Assembly (NCBI GenBank): GCA_020051775.1
Contig: JAGVQJ010000058.1
Location: 1-32,221 of the forward strand
DNA length: 32,221 nucleotides
Source: Calditrichota bacterium
GTDB taxonomy: Bacteria > Electryoneota > B3-LCP
Direction of reading: 5' to 3'
A program made the position numbers and the translations under genes. The notes beneath the pieces are model-generated. The model was not told where the DNA came from. It saw nothing but the letters and a program-made list of their open reading frames with translations, and ran no database searches. Shown piece by piece: positions 18,138 through 29,057 of the stretch. How positions within the stretch are numbered: position 1 is the stretch's first letter; each line of letters opens with the position of its first letter.

Positions 18138-18877
18138 TGAATGATCGAATTGACCGCATCCTGGTGGCGGACGACGATGATATGATCCGGGAAGTACTAA
18201 AGATAAAGCTGGAAAAATCCGGCTATACCGTGCTTCTGGCTGAGGATGGCCTGACCACATTGGCTGGCGTTGAAACTGAGTTTCCCGATCTGCTCATCCT
18301 GGATGTTAAGATGCCTGACCTCGACGGGCTGGAGGTATGTCGTCGTCTGCGATCGGCTGAAATCACCCAGGCGCTCCCGATCTTGATGTTAACCGCCTAT
18401 GGAGGTGTAGAACACGTTCTGGCGGGATTGGACGCCGGAGCCGATGATTACGTTGTCAAACCTTTTCATCCCGAAGAGGTGTTAATGAGAGTGCGAAGCC
18501 TATTGCGCATGAAGCAGATCGAACGCGATCTGCGGGAAAAAGAGGTGCGGCTGGCTCGTGTAGAGGCTGTGGGACAACTGTTAGTCACTCTAGCCCATCA
18601 TATCAATAATTCCCTGGCGGTGCTTATGGGGCGTGCCCAGGCAACCAAAACCGAAGACGTTTATGCTCTCAAATTGAAAGAGGTATGTATGCGCCAGTCG
18701 GAACGCATCACCGTGGTTTTAAAAAGCCTCGAGGAGCAGGTGGGACGTCTACAATTGGAAGCGGTTCCCTATGCGGGGTCTGATCTCAAGATGCTGGATG
18801 TAGAGATGGAGATCACAAAGAGGCTGGAAAACGCAGGCGGGAACGAGACGATCCAAACACAGAAAATTGGAAGCTAA
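18137..18877 (+). CDS. Response regulator with C-terminal histidine-kinase DHp-like domain
   Basis: A 246-residue protein. The receiver domain (about 7-122) has the acidic pocket Asp13/Asp14, the phosphoacceptor Asp56 in LLILDVKMP, Thr86 and Lys108 in VVKPF. A coiled linker (MKQIERDLREKEVRLARVEAVGQ) leads to LLVTLAHHINNSLAVLMGRA, which resembles the H-box of HisKA (AHEINNPL) with His154 at the phosphorylated position and His155 in place of the Glu. A second helix follows, but there is no HATPase domain and no DNA-binding domain. It could dimerise through the DHp-like part and act as a phosphotransfer relay or adaptor. Its stop overlaps the stop of the convergent gene by four bases. Confidence 0.85.
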   Translation: MNDRIDRILVADDDDMIREVLKIKLEKSGYTVLLAEDGLTTLAGVETEFPDLLILDVKMPDLDGLEVCRRLRSAEITQALPILMLTAYGGVEHVLAGLDAGADDYVVKPFHPEEVLMRVRSLLRMKQIERDLREKEVRLARVEAVGQLLVTLAHHINNSLAVLMGRAQATKTEDVYALKLKEVCMRQSERITVVLKSLEEQVGRLQLEAVPYAGSDLKMLDVEMEITKRLENAGGNETIQTQKIGS

Positions 18878-20040
18878 GATTGTGCCAGGAACCGGTTTAG
18901 GGCCAGAAACATCCAAGCTTGTACCCAGCGAATATGCGGAATGCGGTTCGTCCACCGCCGCCGTTTCTGGAAATAAAAATAACCGGACGGATGTTGCAGG
19001 TGCGTTATCCCCCAATGTGCTATTTTTTCGGCAAACTTAAATCCTTCCGGATCAGAATCTTTTAAGCGACTGAAGGTTAGAATCCCCTGAGCCAGACAGT
19101 GGCCATCTACCGGCCAGATGGAGTTCGGAGAGAATTTAGGCGTGCCATCATCGAGGAAAAGCTGCCGACGGTAATAGTCAAGCCCACGTAAAAACGTCGA
19201 ATATAACCCATCATCTGCTGCATAGTATCCGTAATCATCTAAAGCATCCAGAACAAAACCGGTGTGGTAGTTGTCAATCCAATGATGAACTGGATCAATC
19301 CCATACCACCAGGATCCATCCTCGGCTTGATGGGAAGCGACCCACTGAACCGCTGATCTTGCGTGAGACAGCAGATGGGCATCCTGGCTGATTTTTCCAA
19401 CTCGCGCCAACATGCGCGCCGCTAAAGCGGAAACGTTGATAACCCGGGTGCGGTCAATCGGTGTGTAACTGAAACAGATGCCGCCCTCCTCGGAGCGAAT
19501 CGTTAAATCCTGTAAGATAAAGCGGCAGGCTCCGCGCGCGGCTTCTAATAGCTCAGCTTGTGGGTCAAGATCATAAAGATCCAATAATGCATCCACAGCG
19601 AACGCAGTATGCACCAATGAAGGGGTTTGGGCAGGTACGAAAAAAGCCCGGGTCTGGTAGGCGAGATTGGTACCCCAGCAAGGACCGGAATAACCGGCTA
19701 TGACCTTATCCATCAGTCTGGAATGCAAACTCTGGATCATCTCGAGGTTACCTGGGTCCGGAAAATGCTTCTGACGCAGCGCATAGCCCGAGATGAAGAG
19801 AGCCAAACCCTTGGCGAAACAGTCGCGAGGGATACCCAGATAAGGCCGGGGATTTAGTGGAGAGATTTTAATCAGATGATTGGCTGCCCAACGAGGAAGC
19901 CGATAGTTGAAGGGGAATATACGCAATCCGGGAGAAGCCAGCGCATCCCAAGGATCCCAGCCTCGAAAACCCTCCCTTTCGCACCAGGTGCGGAGCGACC
20001 TTTCAGCCGCTTGGATTTTAGTAGCCTTCATAGAGTCCAA
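18874..20040 (-). CDS. Conserved alpha/alpha-toroid-like protein of exopolysaccharide loci
   Basis: The only minus-strand gene, 388 residues, with no signal peptide or TM segments. It is rich in aromatic residues and helical repeats typical of an alpha/alpha toroid (six-hairpin glycosidase/terpenoid-cyclase-like fold). Strongly conserved-looking patches are GYSGPCWGTNLAYQTRAFF (about 116-134), CFSYTPIDRTRV (189-200), DGSWWYG, WIDNYHTGF and IRWVQAWM. From memory, proteins with these patches occur in many polysaccharide gene clusters and carry misleading names in databases (for example delta-aminolevulinic acid dehydratase, with no relation to HemB). Function unknown; processing of a polysaccharide or a lipid-linked intermediate is an inference. 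It is divergent from the exopolysaccharide operon, sharing a 99-bp intergenic region with it. Confidence 0.7.
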   Translation of the reverse strand: MDSMKATKIQAAERSLRTWCEREGFRGWDPWDALASPGLRIFPFNYRLPRWAANHLIKISPLNPRPYLGIPRDCFAKGLALFISGYALRQKHFPDPGNLEMIQSLHSRLMDKVIAGYSGPCWGTNLAYQTRAFFVPAQTPSLVHTAFAVDALLDLYDLDPQAELLEAARGACRFILQDLTIRSEEGGICFSYTPIDRTRVINVSALAARMLARVGKISQDAHLLSHARSAVQWVASHQAEDGSWWYGIDPVHHWIDNYHTGFVLDALDDYGYYAADDGLYSTFLRGLDYYRRQLFLDDGTPKFSPNSIWPVDGHCLAQGILTFSRLKDSDPEGFKFAEKIAHWGITHLQHPSGYFYFQKRRRWTNRIPHIRWVQAWMFLALNRFLAQS

Positions 20041-20047
20041 AAATGGC

Positions 20048-20076
20048 TTGATTTCCAGGAAAAATCTTCCTATATT
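20048..20076 (+). promoter_or_regulatory. Sigma-70-type promoter of the exopolysaccharide operon
   Basis: TTGATT (20048-20053) and TATATT (20071-20076) are separated by exactly 17 bases, each box having one or two mismatches to consensus, in the A/T-rich divergent region between the toroid gene and the export lipoprotein. Transcription would begin near 20083, giving a leader of about 57 bases before ATG 20140. It is the best promoter in the window and sits where the polysaccharide operon should start. Prediction only. Confidence 0.6.
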
Positions 20077-20139
20077 TGGGGAAAATCGAAAATTAACAAG
20101 TTTGCTCGACGCGCCAACTCTTTTGTGAAGGAACCCGTC

Positions 20140-20913
20140 ATGACCTGGTTTGCCAAAACTATAACCATTTGGGCGTTTTCATTGTTGTTGGCGCTACTTC
20201 TCACGTCCTGCTCCGGAAGCCGAGGCCCCGGCTTGGTGGTGACCGAAAAAATCACCATGCCGCCGTATACGCCTCCCCAACCCCAGGATATGCCCGATTA
20301 TTTGATTGATTTCGGCGATCTGTTGGATATCAAGTTCTTCAATAATGAGCGCTTTAACGATTCCATCCGCGTACGTCCCGACGGGCGCATTACTCTGCAT
20401 CGCCTGGGCGATTTCCTAGTAGTAGGGCGTACTCCCGGTGAAGTGGATAAAATGATCACGGACGCATACGCGGGAATTATCAAAGATCCGGATGTGACGG
20501 TATTCGTGCGTGAATTCGGACAGGTGGAACTTTACGTCATGGGCGAGGTATCAAGGCCGGGCAATTATCCCTATCACGCCAATCTGACAGCAGCTCAAGC
20601 CATCGCCATAGCCGGTGGACCCACCCGTGAAGCTAAAATGTCCAGTGTGTTGATCATCCGCATGGAAAGCGATCAGTTGATCGCCGCGCGCTGGGATTTG
20701 GACCGCTTAATGTCCGGACATTTGAAAGGCGGGATTCCCGGTGTCCGAGCCTACGACGTTATCTACGTTCCGCGCACCTTCATATCCAAATTGGGCGACT
20801 TCATGACTTCATATCTGCCGGCCATTTTAAGTCCCATGGATCTGACGGTGCGATGGTACTATTACCAAAAAATAATCCGAGGTGAGAATACCAGCGGAAC
20901 AACCATCCCTTAG
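20140..20913 (+). CDS. Wza-type polysaccharide export lipoprotein
   Basis: A 257-residue outer-membrane export protein when started at ATG 20140, which has AAGGA seven bases upstream; the track start at 19876 runs through the promoter and the divergent gene. A lipoprotein signal ends in LLLTSC with Cys24 as lipid anchor. Next is the Poly_export domain (YLIDFGDLLDIKFFNNERFN, VRPDGRITLHRLGDFLVVGRT) and one SLBB/beta-grasp domain (VELYVMGEVSRPGNYPY, AIAIAGGPTREAKMS). It is shorter than E. coli Wza (379 aa), with fewer SLBB repeats, like many non-enterobacterial homologues. It would form the outer-membrane exit for the polymer made by the downstream genes, with the GumC-like protein as inner-membrane partner. 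Confidence 0.92.
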   Translation: MTWFAKTITIWAFSLLLALLLTSCSGSRGPGLVVTEKITMPPYTPPQPQDMPDYLIDFGDLLDIKFFNNERFNDSIRVRPDGRITLHRLGDFLVVGRTPGEVDKMITDAYAGIIKDPDVTVFVREFGQVELYVMGEVSRPGNYPYHANLTAAQAIAIAGGPTREAKMSSVLIIRMESDQLIAARWDLDRLMSGHLKGGIPGVRAYDVIYVPRTFISKLGDFMTSYLPAILSPMDLTVRWYYYQKIIRGENTSGTTIP

Positions 20914-20938
20914 ACTTACACCGAAACGTGGTAATTTC

Positions 20939-21727
20939 ATGTACTTGAGCTATTTTGGCTTCAAAGAACATCCCTTTAACGTGACACCAGATCCAAAGTT
21001 CCTCTACTTTGGAGAGGCCTATCAGGACGCCTTAGCATACCTGGTTTACGGGATTCGCATGCGCAAAGGATTCGTGGTGTTGACCGGGGAAATCGGCATC
21101 GGCAAGACGACTGTTATCAACGCCCTGCTGGAAAGATTGGATGATTCGCACCGCGTGGCGCATCTGGTACACTCCAATATGAGCCTCAAGGACATGCTGC
21201 GTTTCATTTTTCGTGATTATGGTCTGGAGGCGGCCGGCAAATCCAAGAGTGAATTGCTTTTAGACTTGCAAGTCTTCTTAACCGCCCTGGATCAGCGAGG
21301 AGGCAATGCCGTATTGATCATTGACGAAGCCCAAAACCTCCGCAGTTGGCAGTTGGAAGAGATCCGCTTGCTGTCCAACATCGAAACCGCCAAAAACAAA
21401 TTGATCCAAATCGTATTGGTGGGACAGCCGGAACTTTTACATCTCATCAATGCCACTGAACTTCGTCAATTCAAACAAAGAATCAGTTTACACTTTCACC
21501 TGAAAGCCTTAAACCGTGACGAGACTGAGAATTACATTGATTATCGGGTTAAAATGACCGGCTATCAGGGCAAGAAAATATTTGAAGACGGCGCCTTGGA
21601 TGAAATTTACCACTTTACCGAGGGGATTCCGCGTCTTATTAATGCTCTGTGTGATAAAGCCTTAATCAAGGCGTGTATTTCCAATCAACGCAAGGTGGAT
21701 AAAAAGCTCATTCGACAGGTGATCTAA
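20939..21727 (+). CDS. ExeA/XrtA-associated type AAA ATPase
   Basis: A 262-residue cytosolic AAA-type ATPase from ATG 20939 (track start 20882 is inside the upstream gene). It begins MYLSYFGFKEHPFNVTPDPKF, the hallmark of the ExeA/GspA family seen in type II secretion and in exosortase-linked exopolysaccharide loci. Walker A is GEIGIGKTT (Gly50-Thr58, Lys56) and Walker B is VLLIIDEAQ-like (AVLIIDEAQ, Asp129-Glu130); GIPRLINALCDKAL is the sensor-2-like region. It lacks the C-terminal peptidoglycan-binding part of ExeA. No exosortase is in the window. Its role in polysaccharide export is by association. Confidence 0.87.
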   Translation: MYLSYFGFKEHPFNVTPDPKFLYFGEAYQDALAYLVYGIRMRKGFVVLTGEIGIGKTTVINALLERLDDSHRVAHLVHSNMSLKDMLRFIFRDYGLEAAGKSKSELLLDLQVFLTALDQRGGNAVLIIDEAQNLRSWQLEEIRLLSNIETAKNKLIQIVLVGQPELLHLINATELRQFKQRISLHFHLKALNRDETENYIDYRVKMTGYQGKKIFEDGALDEIYHFTEGIPRLINALCDKALIKACISNQRKVDKKLIRQVI

Positions 21728-23958: not shown

Positions 23959-25383
23959 ATGGATAAAAATTACGTCGCTGCGCGCTCTACTTCTCTGCGT
24001 CACTTTCTGATGGTGGTTTTCAAGCGGATTTGGCTGGTCGCGGGGATTTCGGTTTTGGCGTTGTTGGCCGGTGCGTTTCAGATCATGCGTCTGCCGGATA
24101 AATATGAAGCCTCGGCCAAACTGCTGTTGGAACGCGACCCGGAGCTGGAAAAAATGATGCTTCTGCGCATCAGCGGCGGGGGCCGTGATGACGAATCCAG
24201 TTATAGTTTCACGCAGGAATCGGAAATTATGACTTCGCGGCCGGTGTTGGAAAGGGTCATTCTGGGTCTGGGGCTATTCGGTTTCGATGACACCACTAAA
24301 TTTTTAAACTCACAGGATCGCGAAGCCGCCATGCAGAACGCTCTTTTTCAAATGTCAAAAGACCTGTCTATTATTCCTTCCACCGATCCCAATATTGTCA
24401 AAGTCAAATTCAAATCCACCGACCCCGCCCGCAGCGCCGGGGTTGTGAATGATCTGGTCAATAAATACATCGAATACCGTTTTGAAGTGTTTTCGGACGA
24501 CCAGAATCTGGCATTCCTGGACAAACAAATCGAAGAAACCGGATCCCTGCTGACCGACTTACAAAATCAACGAGCCCTTTTCCAGAGCGAGGGCACTTTA
24601 TACACCCCGGCTCGAGAAGGCGATATTCTCTTCACCAAGCTCAAAGATTACGAGAGTCGCGCTGATGCTTTAAAACTGGAAAGAATCAGCAAGGAAGCCA
24701 AACTCAAATCCTTGCAGGATATGGTCAATAACGGCACCTTTGATGGCCTGGCCGCCATTGACCTGGGAGCCAATAATTCTCAAATGGTCAATGTGTTGAC
24801 GTTGAAAAGCCAGCTCTGGACTTTAGAATACGAACGCGACCGCCTGCGCCAGAAATATACCGACACTTACGTGGAAGTGCAGGAAAAGACTACAGAGATC
24901 GAAGCCTTGCGCAAGCGCATTAACGAAGAAGTCGGCCAGATCATAAAGGGTTTGCAATCCCACATCAGCGCTTTGAATAGCGAGGAATCTACCCTGCGAG
25001 CCAATGTGGCTTCCATCCAGTATCAAATTCGGGGTTTGTCGGGTAAGGATTTGGAAATGTCGAAATTGTCCCGCAGCATCCTCGAAACGGAAGAGATCTA
25101 TTCGGCCTTGCAAAAACAGCGTGACGAGACGAGACTTTCCCGCACCAAAAAAGAGATGGTGGTGCGGGTAAAAGTAATCAGCGCCGCCGTGCCGCCCTTG
25201 GAACCCATCTCGGAACATAAATTCATCAAATTGGCGTTGGTGCTGTGCCTGGGGATCTTTGCCGGTATATCCATGGCCTTTTTCTTCGATTTCTTCGACC
25301 ACTCTTTTCAGAGTGCCGAAGACGTACAACGCTACCTGAATCTTGATGTACTGGCCTCAATTCGGAGCTTTGAAAAACCGTGA
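23959..25383 (+). CDS. GumC/Wzz-type chain-length determinant protein
   Basis: A 474-residue polysaccharide co-polymerase. The N-terminal TM (about 24-41) is followed by the Wzz domain (YEASAKLLLERDPELEKM, FTQESEIMTSRPVLERVI, VKVKFKSTDPARSAGVVNDLV) and a long periplasmic coiled-coil region (about 190-400, EYERDRLRQKYTDTYVEVQEKT). A second TM (about 424-443) and a short cytosolic tail DHSFQSAEDVQRYLNLDVLASI follow, as in the GumC/EpsF group. No kinase domain is fused. The next gene (a CpsD-like ATPase) overlaps it by GTGA and would be its cytosolic partner. It controls polymer length and contacts the Wza-type lipoprotein. Confidence 0.93.
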   Translation: MDKNYVAARSTSLRHFLMVVFKRIWLVAGISVLALLAGAFQIMRLPDKYEASAKLLLERDPELEKMMLLRISGGGRDDESSYSFTQESEIMTSRPVLERVILGLGLFGFDDTTKFLNSQDREAAMQNALFQMSKDLSIIPSTDPNIVKVKFKSTDPARSAGVVNDLVNKYIEYRFEVFSDDQNLAFLDKQIEETGSLLTDLQNQRALFQSEGTLYTPAREGDILFTKLKDYESRADALKLERISKEAKLKSLQDMVNNGTFDGLAAIDLGANNSQMVNVLTLKSQLWTLEYERDRLRQKYTDTYVEVQEKTTEIEALRKRINEEVGQIIKGLQSHISALNSEESTLRANVASIQYQIRGLSGKDLEMSKLSRSILETEEIYSALQKQRDETRLSRTKKEMVVRVKVISAAVPPLEPISEHKFIKLALVLCLGIFAGISMAFFFDFFDHSFQSAEDVQRYLNLDVLASIRSFEKP

Positions 25384-26162
25384 CGATCTACAAGGACATG
25401 ATCAAGTGGGCTGAGAAGCGGGGCGAGGTGTTGGAAAGCCCGCTGGAAGCTGATGAGACTCCCGATGAGGCGCATCACCCACTACCCGGGGATCTGCCCC
25501 GACCTCTAGCCAATGACTTGCAAATGTTGCAGGAAAACATCGAAGCACTTCGTGGCCAGGATGAGTTTCGGACTGTCCTGGTTGCTTCAGCCGTGCGAGG
25601 CGAAGGGGCTTCCACTATTGCCGCCAATTGGTGCCGACTGCTGGCTCGAGATCGCCTCTCCGGAATGCCTATCAGCACCACTGACACTATCGGCGGCGGT
25701 ATCCTTCTGATTGACGCCAACCTGCGCCGGCCAGTACAACATAGTCTTTTTGATCTGGATCGAAAACGCGGCTTGACGGAGCTTTTACAAGGCGAGCTGG
25801 ACCTTCAGCAGGTGATTAAAGGAGTTTCGCGGCGTAATCTCTGGGTAATAACATCCGGTAAGCCCGCCGCCAATCCTGCCGACCTTTTGGGATCCATGCT
25901 GATGAGAGGCATTTTGGAAGAGTGCCGCCGTCGTTTCGAGTTTATCGTGGTGGATGCCGCACCGGTTTCTTTATACGCTGAAACCTTAGCCTTAGCCAAG
26001 CAGGTGGATGCCACCTTATTGGTAGTGCGCACCGGCCAAACCCGCTGGGAGGTGGCGGCTTCAGCTAAAAACCAGTTGCAAAAAGTAAATTCACGCATTT
26101 TAGGCGTAGTGTTAAATCAACGCAAATTCATCATTCCCGGCTGGATATATAAAAGAATTTGA
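25380..26162 (+). CDS. CpsD/CapB-family tyrosine-kinase-like ATPase with altered Walker A
   Basis: A 260-residue cytosolic protein of the bacterial tyrosine kinase (CpsD/Wzc-C) fold. It starts with GTG overlapping the GumC stop. The P-loop reads VRGEGAST: the essential Lys is Ala77 (codon GCT at 25608-25610). Walker A' is LLIDANLRRP (Asp112) and Walker B FIVVDAAPV (Asp192), both close to normal. Family members with active kinase end in a Tyr cluster; this one ends PGWIYKRI with a single Tyr. So ATP hydrolysis and autophosphorylation are doubtful, while the fold and its contact with the GumC tail appear kept. It is probably a pseudokinase that serves as an assembly partner, or binds nucleotide differently. 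Confidence 0.85.
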   Translation: MTIYKDMIKWAEKRGEVLESPLEADETPDEAHHPLPGDLPRPLANDLQMLQENIEALRGQDEFRTVLVASAVRGEGASTIAANWCRLLARDRLSGMPISTTDTIGGGILLIDANLRRPVQHSLFDLDRKRGLTELLQGELDLQQVIKGVSRRNLWVITSGKPAANPADLLGSMLMRGILEECRRRFEFIVVDAAPVSLYAETLALAKQVDATLLVVRTGQTRWEVAASAKNQLQKVNSRILGVVLNQRKFIIPGWIYKRI

Positions 26163-26207: not shown

Positions 26208-27713
26208 TTGATCAAGGACGACATCCGTAAAGGCTTTGCCAGCACTGTATATAACTATTTGGGCTTGTTCTTTGAAAAACTAATGACGGTCTTTGTGACC
26301 GTTTATGTCATTCGGCAATTGCCGATTGTGGATTATGGTGTTTTTAATCTATTTCAAGACACCATCGTTCTGGTCGAGGTGATTTTCGCGTTCGGCATCC
26401 CTTCGCTGATTGAGCGGTTTCTGCCGGAATTATATGAGCGAGGGTTGTTTGAGGAGCTGCGGCGCTGGGTTCGGCGAGCCTTGGTGGCTCGTTTTCTACT
26501 GGGAGTCTTGGGCGCCTTGATTTGCCTGTTCGGCCGTGAATATCTGGGGACCCTTCTTCACGCTGAGAAATTCTCAGCCTTGTACCCTGTCTTCGCCCTG
26601 GGATTGGTGTTCACCATTCTGAATACTACTTCCCAGATGGTGCTGGATACTTTCCTACAGCAGAAGCGGCGCAATGCTATTCGCGTCATCGTTTCCATGG
26701 TGCGAGCGGGATTGTATTTTTGTGCCATCTATTTCGGATTTGGTTTATTGGGGGTACTGTGGAGTTTCTCCATTTCCGCCATCGTGGGATCGGCGCTCTT
26801 TATATGGACGATCCATCATCAGAAGTTCCCTGCCAACATCACTCCGCGTACGGAAGGCTTGGGAAGTCTTCCGGGGCGAATGAAACGCTATGGCGGAATC
26901 AGTTATGCTAATGAAATGGGGAGTCTGATCTTGAGTCGTCGCGTGGACAACTACATGATCAGCACCTTTATTAATCCGGTGGCCGTAGGATTTTATTCTT
27001 TTGCCGCACGTATCGTGGATATGTTCATCGCTTTAACGCCCTTGAAGGTCGGAACGATGATCATTTCCACGATCCTATTTCGGCAATTCACTGAGAATCC
27101 AACCCAGGAGTTTTTGCAGCGCCGCTTCAATTTATTGACTAAACTATGCTATTACCTGACCTTGCCGTTACTGCTCATCTTAGTTGGTCTCAGTCGCCAG
27201 GTCACGATGATTATTGATCCCAAATATGTCACAGCCAGCGGCATCTTGGCGCTCATCGCCGTTTTTGAGATTTTCAATTCCTTTTCCTGGCCCATCGCTT
27301 GGATGGCGCAATCCGCCGAGAAACCCGAAGTGCAGCTTTATTCAAAAATCGGCGCAATATACAATATCATCAGCGCGCTGATTCTTATTCCGCTCTATGG
27401 GCCGTTAGGCGCTGCCTGGGCGACCGGCACTTCATCGTTAATGAAGAACATTTTAATGTATCTGTTTTTACGACGCCATCTACCGCTAACTTTCCCCTGG
27501 GTTTCCTTGGGGAAGTTGAGTTTAGCCGGTTTAGTTTCCTGGGGTATCCTAATTGCCCTGGAACCATTCGTGGACGGACTATTCCCCTTATTGTTAGCCG
27601 CTGCTGCCGGAGTTCTGGGTTTCGTATTGAGTTCCTGGCTGCTGCAACCCTTTAACCAGGCGGAACGCTCTTCGTTGGAAAAAGCGTTTGGCCGTCGCTT
27701 GCGGTTTGTATAA
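26208..27713 (+). CDS. Wzx-type polysaccharide flippase (MATE/MOP superfamily)
   Basis: A 501-residue polytopic inner-membrane protein with 12-14 hydrophobic helices, the length and pattern of O-antigen/exopolysaccharide flippases. Typical stretches are the N-terminal FASTVYNYLGLFFEKLMTVF, the FGIPSLIERFLPE loop and the C-terminal polysaccharide-biosynthesis region GAIYNIISALILIPLYGPLGAAWATG. It would flip the undecaprenyl-linked repeat unit to the periplasm. TTG start at 26208 with GAGAGG seven bases upstream. The stop is directly followed by the next ATG, with no gap. Confidence 0.88.
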   Translation: MIKDDIRKGFASTVYNYLGLFFEKLMTVFVTVYVIRQLPIVDYGVFNLFQDTIVLVEVIFAFGIPSLIERFLPELYERGLFEELRRWVRRALVARFLLGVLGALICLFGREYLGTLLHAEKFSALYPVFALGLVFTILNTTSQMVLDTFLQQKRRNAIRVIVSMVRAGLYFCAIYFGFGLLGVLWSFSISAIVGSALFIWTIHHQKFPANITPRTEGLGSLPGRMKRYGGISYANEMGSLILSRRVDNYMISTFINPVAVGFYSFAARIVDMFIALTPLKVGTMIISTILFRQFTENPTQEFLQRRFNLLTKLCYYLTLPLLLILVGLSRQVTMIIDPKYVTASGILALIAVFEIFNSFSWPIAWMAQSAEKPEVQLYSKIGAIYNIISALILIPLYGPLGAAWATGTSSLMKNILMYLFLRRHLPLTFPWVSLGKLSLAGLVSWGILIALEPFVDGLFPLLLAAAAGVLGFVLSSWLLQPFNQAERSSLEKAFGRRLRFV

Positions 27714-29057
27714 ATGAATCTGATGGACCCCATTCAGGCTGTGCAAAAAGCCATTCGACCGGATGATAAAGGAACCGGTAAATACGCTCAAATTCGTCCC
27801 TTTCCATACCCCTTTAAGGCAGCACTGGCGATTTGCAATGATTTGGATGGGCTAACTACCTTCGAGCGGATGAAGGCCGTGCATGACGTCATGAACGGAC
27901 ATGCCACGACCCCTTGCGGTCCCGGCTTGGGTTTGGAGATCGGTGATTCCATGCATTTTTTCTCCGTTCACCCTCAAGCCGATGATACCTTAGCCTATTT
28001 TGATGGGTTGACTAATCAACCGGGGCCTGCCGCCTCGGCGCTACGAGAGGGGATTCAGGCGGGTCTGCTGGATACGCTGCATACCTGGGGGAATTATTCT
28101 CAAAAAGGAGGATTTTTCCGCGAGCAAGCCGAGTGGGCGGTGGCAGAAATGGAAAAATATGGCCTGCACCTGCCGCTCTGGACCAATCACGGCGACCGCC
28201 ACAATTTCCAGAATTTGGGGCGTGCTGACTCCTTGGGCGACGTGCGGGAAACCTCCTCGGCACGAGGCGATAAAAGCCGAGTACTGGAATATCACGCGGA
28301 TTTGGTTCACCAGATCGGCATTCGCTATTTATGGTTGAAGGAACTTACCGGCATTCCCGGCCAGGAAAGATTTCTTAATTGGCAGGATTGGCTGGAAGAC
28401 GGATCGGAATTAGGGCGCTACTTTGCAAAAGGATTGGCCTCGCATGATCCCGTTGGTGGAACTGGTCGGCCACTGCAGTTGACCAATCATCTCCTGCGCC
28501 TGCGACCCTTGCGGGATGGCAACAGCTTTTACGAGATGCTGCGCTATGGATTCTTCATCAAAGATGGCGCCGATAACCTACCTGAGCTGCTGTCGTTACG
28601 CTTCCTGCGCCGGTTGGTTGAATCGGGAGGCGCTTGCCTGCTCTATATTCATCTGGGTAAGGGCCAACCCTCGCCGGAAGTACCATTCAGCAAGGAAAGC
28701 TATAACGCCCTGGCGCGATTGGCGGAATGGGCCCGCGCGGGGGATATTTGGGTAACGACTCCCTCTCGTTTGTGTCGCTACGTTGAGTTGCGTCAGCGTC
28801 TGAAACTGAATGCCTATTTAAGCGAAGGCGAGATGTGGTTGGCTGGTGACTTCGAACCCGCCGGCAGATTATCGGAACCAGAAATATCCGGGTTATCATT
28901 CTATCTACCGGAAGTGACTGCCGCTCAAAAACCCCCGGATGATACTCGGTTGGATTTGACTGCAGCGGGAAACGTCCTGGTGCAGAATCCACCCGATCAC
29001 ACTGGCAAAGTTTCCTATTCTGCGCCGTTGGAGCCGCTGGTCTATCCATGGGAATAA
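27714..29057 (+). CDS. Polysaccharide deacetylase-like protein
   Basis: A 447-residue soluble protein with no signal peptide, placed between a flippase and a glycosyltransferase. Recognition is tentative. The early KAALAICNDLDGLTTFE (Asn42-Asp43-Leu44-Asp45) resembles the first NodB motif (FDDG), and GLLDTLHTWGNYSQ (His123) resembles the second metal motif (H-S/T-x-x-H) but with Asn instead of the last His. Further conserved-looking His-rich patches are LWTNHGDRHNFQNL and LLYIHLGKGQPSP. A C-terminal beta-rich region (from about 365) has no catalytic motif. It could be a sugar deacetylase or a glycoside hydrolase-related barrel that modifies the repeat unit. The end overlaps the next gene by ten bases. 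Confidence 0.5.
   Translation: MNLMDPIQAVQKAIRPDDKGTGKYAQIRPFPYPFKAALAICNDLDGLTTFERMKAVHDVMNGHATTPCGPGLGLEIGDSMHFFSVHPQADDTLAYFDGLTNQPGPAASALREGIQAGLLDTLHTWGNYSQKGGFFREQAEWAVAEMEKYGLHLPLWTNHGDRHNFQNLGRADSLGDVRETSSARGDKSRVLEYHADLVHQIGIRYLWLKELTGIPGQERFLNWQDWLEDGSELGRYFAKGLASHDPVGGTGRPLQLTNHLLRLRPLRDGNSFYEMLRYGFFIKDGADNLPELLSLRFLRRLVESGGACLLYIHLGKGQPSPEVPFSKESYNALARLAEWARAGDIWVTTPSRLCRYVELRQRLKLNAYLSEGEMWLAGDFEPAGRLSEPEISGLSFYLPEVTAAQKPPDDTRLDLTAAGNVLVQNPPDHTGKVSYSAPLEPLVYPWE

Follow-up and report, generated by a model that had tools for sequence, protein, structure and literature searches.

The gene at 25380-26162 of the window (the whole stretch of DNA analysed, 32,221 nucleotides, which is one entire contig of a 4.07-Mb genome) encodes a protein that carries VLVASAVRGEGASTIAANW, in which Ala77 occupies the position held by lysine in BY-type tyrosine kinases. 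We put at roughly 0.8 the probability that this protein is a catalytically dead, stand-alone BY pseudokinase serving, by way of tail docking, as a scaffold for the kinase-less PCP-2 protein GumC in a Wzx/Wzy pathway. The conserved cytoplasmic tail of GumC would dock onto the pseudokinase, which would then provide a non-phosphorylating platform for PCP assembly in polysaccharide production of the Wzx/Wzy type. We infer that the protein is inactive as a kinase, that it binds the PCP tail and that it affects polymer assembly; the proposed scaffold role leans on the precedents of EcpK and HfsB (PMC12004946). The features concerned are collected in Table 1, and an Rfam search of the window gave no match.

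Table 1. Features of the polysaccharide locus, in window coordinates.
Feature	Position	Strand	Basis or remark
OPX polysaccharide export protein	19876..20913	+	PF02563, PF10531; synteny; true start maybe further downstream
GumC/Wzz-type PCP-2 partner, 474 aa, kinase-less	23959..25383	+	PF02706, PF13807 (Wzz + GNVR only)
PCP cytoplasmic C-terminal tail (DFFDHSFQSAEDVQRYLNLDVLASIRSFEKP), presumed docking segment	25288..25380	+	Conserved in 6/6 PCPs
Stand-alone BY-kinase-like protein without catalytic residues (BY pseudokinase), 260 aa	25380..26162	+	TIGR01007; fold; Lys absent in 6/6 orthologues
EX2RX2R helix motif, here N45-X2-Q48-X2-Q51	25512..25532	+	Invariant in 6/6 orthologues
Degenerate Walker A, VRGEGAST, residues 72-79	25593..25616	+	Residue 77 Ala, not Lys; codon GCT, 25608-25610
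Insertion of ~13 residues (93-106), P-loop helix to Walker A'	25656..25697	+	Group-specific in alignment
Walker A', LLIDANLR, residues 109-116 (GILLIDANLRRP)	25704..25727	+	Asp112 retained; Asn114 in place of the second Asp
Walker B strand, FIVVDAA, residues 188-194 (FIVVDAAP read)	25941..25961	+	Asp192 invariant in 43/43 alignment rows
C-terminal tail RKFIIPGWIYKRI, residues 248-260, no tyrosine cluster	26121..26159	+	Orthologue comparison
Wzx-type flippase	26208..27713	+	PF01943
Putative Wzy polymerase, 447 aa	27714..29057	+	Inferred from position; conserved in all relatives

Membership of the protein in the BY-kinase family is indicated by both sequence profile and predicted structure. A Pfam search of the protein gave no match over threshold, and the NCBIfam model TIGR01007 (polysaccharide biosynthesis tyrosine autokinase) scores 129.5 bits, above its cut-off of 108.05. 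An AlphaFold model built on a 43-row alignment has a mean pLDDT of 82.7, and its best PDB matches in Foldseek are the kinase domains of Wzc (3la6, E 1.3e-17), Etk, CapAB and VpsO (TMt 0.85). Profile score and fold matches together identify the protein as a BY-kinase homologue. With TIGR01007 above its cut-off, automatic annotation would call the product an active tyrosine autokinase, which is probably wrong.

The first-pass annotation had read the P-loop as RGEGAST with Ala77 in place of Lys, and translation bears this out, coordinates and residue numbers included. It had also noted that the reading would fall if sister genomes carried GEGKST at the locus; none of the six does, and so the protein is not a lone mutant. 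Position 77 is A, V, S, S, S and S in the six orthologues and Lys in none, while the Walker A Lys is present in all 53 other distinct BY-kinase domains examined, which come mostly from the same phylum and include both paralogues of the six genomes. A single mutation or an assembly error at this position is ruled out by the agreement of six genomes. The retention of Asp112 and Asp192, also claimed in the first pass, stands, but Walker A' is incomplete: all six orthologues have Asn for the second Asp of DxDxR (DxNxR), where 36 of the 37 other BY-kinases of the 43-row alignment have Asp. That substitution had been overlooked, as had the disappearance of the EX2RX2R motif, whose Glu all 37 other BY-kinases in that alignment keep and which is replaced by NX2QX2Q in every orthologue. 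The absence of a tyrosine cluster was seen correctly, Tyr257 being the sole Tyr near the C-terminus; the tails of the orthologues hold one or two isolated Tyr and no cluster, and both paralogues of the same genome finish in Tyr clusters (e.g., YGSYYYYYHYYQYYYYYG). EX2RX2R constitutes one half of the canonical BY-kinase ring interface and the Tyr cluster the other (PMC3795738); with both missing, any ring would have to depend on the PCP or on contacts of a new kind. Set against an active kinase of the Wzc/CapB type, the protein thus has the Walker B Asp and lacks the GK[ST] Lys, DxDxR, EX2RX2R and the Tyr cluster.

An active kinase might in principle persist if a non-standard residue, such as Arg73 or Arg74, took over from the Lys, with substrates other than a Tyr cluster. 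Arg73 is found in five of the six orthologues and Arg74 in three, but residues 73-74 are variable (R/W and G/R/H), the orthologue L004 having Trp73-Gly74, and compensation by either Arg is rejected because neither is invariant. Moreover, none of the six has the second Walker A' Asp or the Tyr cluster, and the operon is without a phosphatase, all of which makes continued kinase activity very improbable.

The GTDB class of the source organism, which coincides with its order and family, holds six genomes in six genera (LCP-89/Zixibacteria type), a lineage known only through metagenome assembly, and each genome has exactly one orthologue of the pseudokinase, 63-74% identical. A contig scan with the pseudokinase as single query found no match; an alignment-based contig scan found the five orthologues and one intact kinase in Elusimicrobiaceae. 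Outgroups were six records among the 40 of 626 matches listed in a plasmid tblastn search, the listed matches being mostly annotated as kinases. A maximum-likelihood tree of 48 rows groups the six pseudokinases as monophyletic, with support of 100/100 and a long stem, which points to one origin of the clade; the same tree does not place its branching point.

That the gene is under selection, as the first pass had supposed, is borne out by the comparison of the six orthologues, in which pN is 0.196 and pS is 0.806 (synonymous sites are saturated), values that indicate purifying selection. The pseudokinase is less constrained than the intact paralogues, whose pN is 0.10-0.11. This faster evolution is what a decaying gene on its way to loss would show, but the frame is intact in 6/6 genera, synonymous sites are saturated against a mean protein identity of 69%, and synteny is fixed. 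The selection and synteny results contradict decay, which we hold to be scarcely credible, and a pseudogene is rejected on the selection result.

The genomic setting places the pseudokinase gene beside that of its PCP. The GTG start of the gene overlaps the gumC stop codon by 4 bp (GTGA) and translation shows an intact frame, both as first described; across the orthologues the gene overlaps or abuts the PCP gene, and its position beside that gene is fixed. A Pfam search found no kinase domain in GumC. The tails of the six PCPs follow the consensus DHSFxxAEDVQRYLxLxxLASIRSF, reading IRSF near the C-terminus in five and IRSH in one. The operon runs OPX, XrtA-type ATPase, PMT_2 glycosyltransferase, epimerase, PCP, pseudokinase, Wzx, probable Wzy and two glycosyltransferases, an order that the five relatives share over whatever stretch their contigs cover. 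The product in the Wzy position (27714-29057) has no match in Pfam or NCBIfam. With Wzy assigned by position, the protein has a kinase-less PCP-2 partner in a Wzx/Wzy pathway, as is the case for the EcpK/HfsB kind.

Two observations concern the proximal part of the operon. The start of OPX may lie downstream of that of the ORF, since in two of the five relatives the alignment begins only at residue ~103-110; the 5' end of the OPX ORF is overlapped by a 388-aa minus-strand ORF (18874-20040) for which Pfam gave no match. The ATPase at 20882-21727 scores 307.3 bits with TIGR03015 (XrtA/PEP-CTERM-associated) against a cut-off of 324.5, and no other gene of the operon is as well conserved (79-83% identity).

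All six genomes have an intact BY-kinase with a phosphatase (on contig C91 in the source genome), and a search for CpsB/CapC tyrosine phosphatase gave exactly one match per genome, directly adjoining the intact fused kinase. No CpsB/CapC phosphatase was found in the pseudokinase operon of any of the six, and low-molecular-weight (LMW) phosphatases are encoded on separate contigs or 180 kb or more from the operon, both statements applying to assemblies of which most are fragmented. The catalytic and ring losses in 6/6, purifying selection, the fixed PCP neighbour and the lack of an operon phosphatase together support the first-pass proposal of a pseudokinase, and the intact kinase and phosphatase in the same cells offer a natural internal control.

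Their co-occurrence in every genome also lends some colour to another role, in which the pseudokinase would mix or compete with the canonical BY-kinase (contig C91) and so tune its phosphorylation, a role similar to that suggested for inactive CapB1 (PMC3795738). Against this, EX2RX2R, through which half of the canonical ring contact is made, is absent (PMC3795738), the gene overlaps or abuts its own kinase-less PCP gene, and the genetics so far available for EcpK speak against dependence on active kinases (PMC12004946); we consider such regulation improbable.

Other fused kinases were observed in passing. A 715-aa fused kinase on contig C125 (L003) and its five orthologues have a Walker A' of DTDYPRP or similar, in which Pro takes the place of the DxDxR Arg in 6/6 and the Walker A Lys is kept; a Tyr cluster is present in L003 and L014, whose ends were read. 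In other families of the same phylum, fused BY-kinases L105, L106, L108, L109, L110, L111 and L114 keep the Lys and have a Walker A' of VGCNLRRP or IGCNLRRP, with both Asp gone and an insertion of ~20 residues following. By their motifs these seven are candidates for a second, different pseudokinase group.

The extent to which the pseudokinase may still handle nucleotide bears on how the scaffold would work. Crystals of CapA1B2(K55M) (PMC3795738) and maps of Wzc(K540M) (PMC11986026) contain ADP-Mg, so loss of the Lys alone is no proof that ATP binding is lost. Glu75-Gly76, Ser78, Asp112, Arg116 and Asp192 are invariant across the six orthologues; apart from Arg116, these residues are more than EcpK keeps, so that some nucleotide function may persist, and a nucleotide-bound but inert pseudokinase that uses both retained Asp residues is possible from the sequence. 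The fuller retention of the nucleotide site counts against the scaffold reading, as do the LMW phosphatases elsewhere in the genomes and the fragmented state of most assemblies.

As a sub-case of the pseudokinase reading, the protein could be a switch that binds nucleotide and does not phosphorylate: ADP- or ATP-Mg would be held through Asp112, Asp192 and Ser78, the PCP tail would bring an aromatic residue near the base, and occupancy would control PCP assembly. The invariant residues and the ADP-Mg of the two Lys mutants fit this idea, and the IRSF or IRSH of the PCP tails recalls the penultimate Phe of CapA1, which contacts the nucleotide (PMC3795738). However, a sequence search of the PCP tail against solved CapA gave no match, the register of the Phe not being directly alignable, residue 79 is Ile or Met in two orthologues, residues 73-74 vary, and conservation among the orthologues is highest at residues 121-136 and 151-172 and not in the P-loop. 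We regard the switch as a tentative proposal, with odds well against it; a shade more doubtful is its extension to a nucleotide-gated, non-phosphorylating PCP-2 switch in which the pocket was kept for sensing or to hold a structural cofactor as the Tyr tail and canonical ring contacts were removed. Were gating by nucleotide true, evolution would have fixed a Lys loss of the kind that structural work introduces (K55M, K540M) so as to capture the kinase unphosphorylated and bound to ADP.

Four known systems come closest to this one. The pseudokinase resembles the XrtA-associated tyrosine autokinase (TIGR03018) in that it stands alone, adjoins a chain-length determinant and lies in an operon with an XrtA-type ATPase; TIGR03018 itself scores 106.6 bits, below its cut-off of 230.65. 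Around Walker B it has DxAP...AET in common with the Nitratidesulfovibrio XrtA kinase, which, unlike the pseudokinase, keeps GEGKT and DADLR. Ala194 and Glu201 had been candidates for pseudokinase-specific changes and were dropped, as that kinase also reads DTAP...AET. An XrtA/PEP-CTERM system is rejected, since exosortase (PF09721) was found in none of the six genomes. The split architecture is that of CapB/CapA of Staphylococcus aureus (PCP-2b), where the CapA tail docks on a separate kinase-like protein, as is presumed here for GumC; CapB2 differs in being active, with the Walker A Lys, EX2RX2R, a Tyr cluster and the associated CapC phosphatase.

The remaining likenesses are to two described pseudokinase pairs (PMC12004946). 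HfsB and HfsA of Caulobacter crescentus, both needed for polysaccharide there, likewise combine a stand-alone BY pseudokinase with a kinase-less PCP-2 protein. EcpK of Myxococcus xanthus, identified in 2025 as a BY pseudokinase, binds EpsV, a PCP-2 protein without a kinase domain, and is needed for exopolysaccharide, and in published models of both EcpK/EpsV and HfsB/HfsA the PCP tail docks on the pseudokinase (PMC12004946). As described for EcpK/EpsV, the protein studied here has a stand-alone BY-kinase fold, as judged from the predicted model, lacks by its sequence key catalytic residues and the Tyr tail, and is paired with a kinase-less PCP-2 protein in a Wzx/Wzy pathway. It thus shows the testable features of the EcpK/HfsB kind and is placed there by resemblance to its description. 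Two differences from EcpK stand out: ecpK is encoded away from epsV, whereas the present gene overlaps its PCP gene, and EcpK has lost all three Walker motifs, whereas the first Asp of Walker A', the Walker B Asp and the Glu-Gly-x-Ser of the P-loop are kept here. The phosphorylation-independent PCP-2 subfamily, so far known by experiment in Myxococcus and Caulobacter, would now have a candidate lineage at the level of a phylum, and its members would represent an informative intermediate in which the Lys, the second Asp, the ring motif and the Tyr tail have been lost and the two Asp of the metal site retained.
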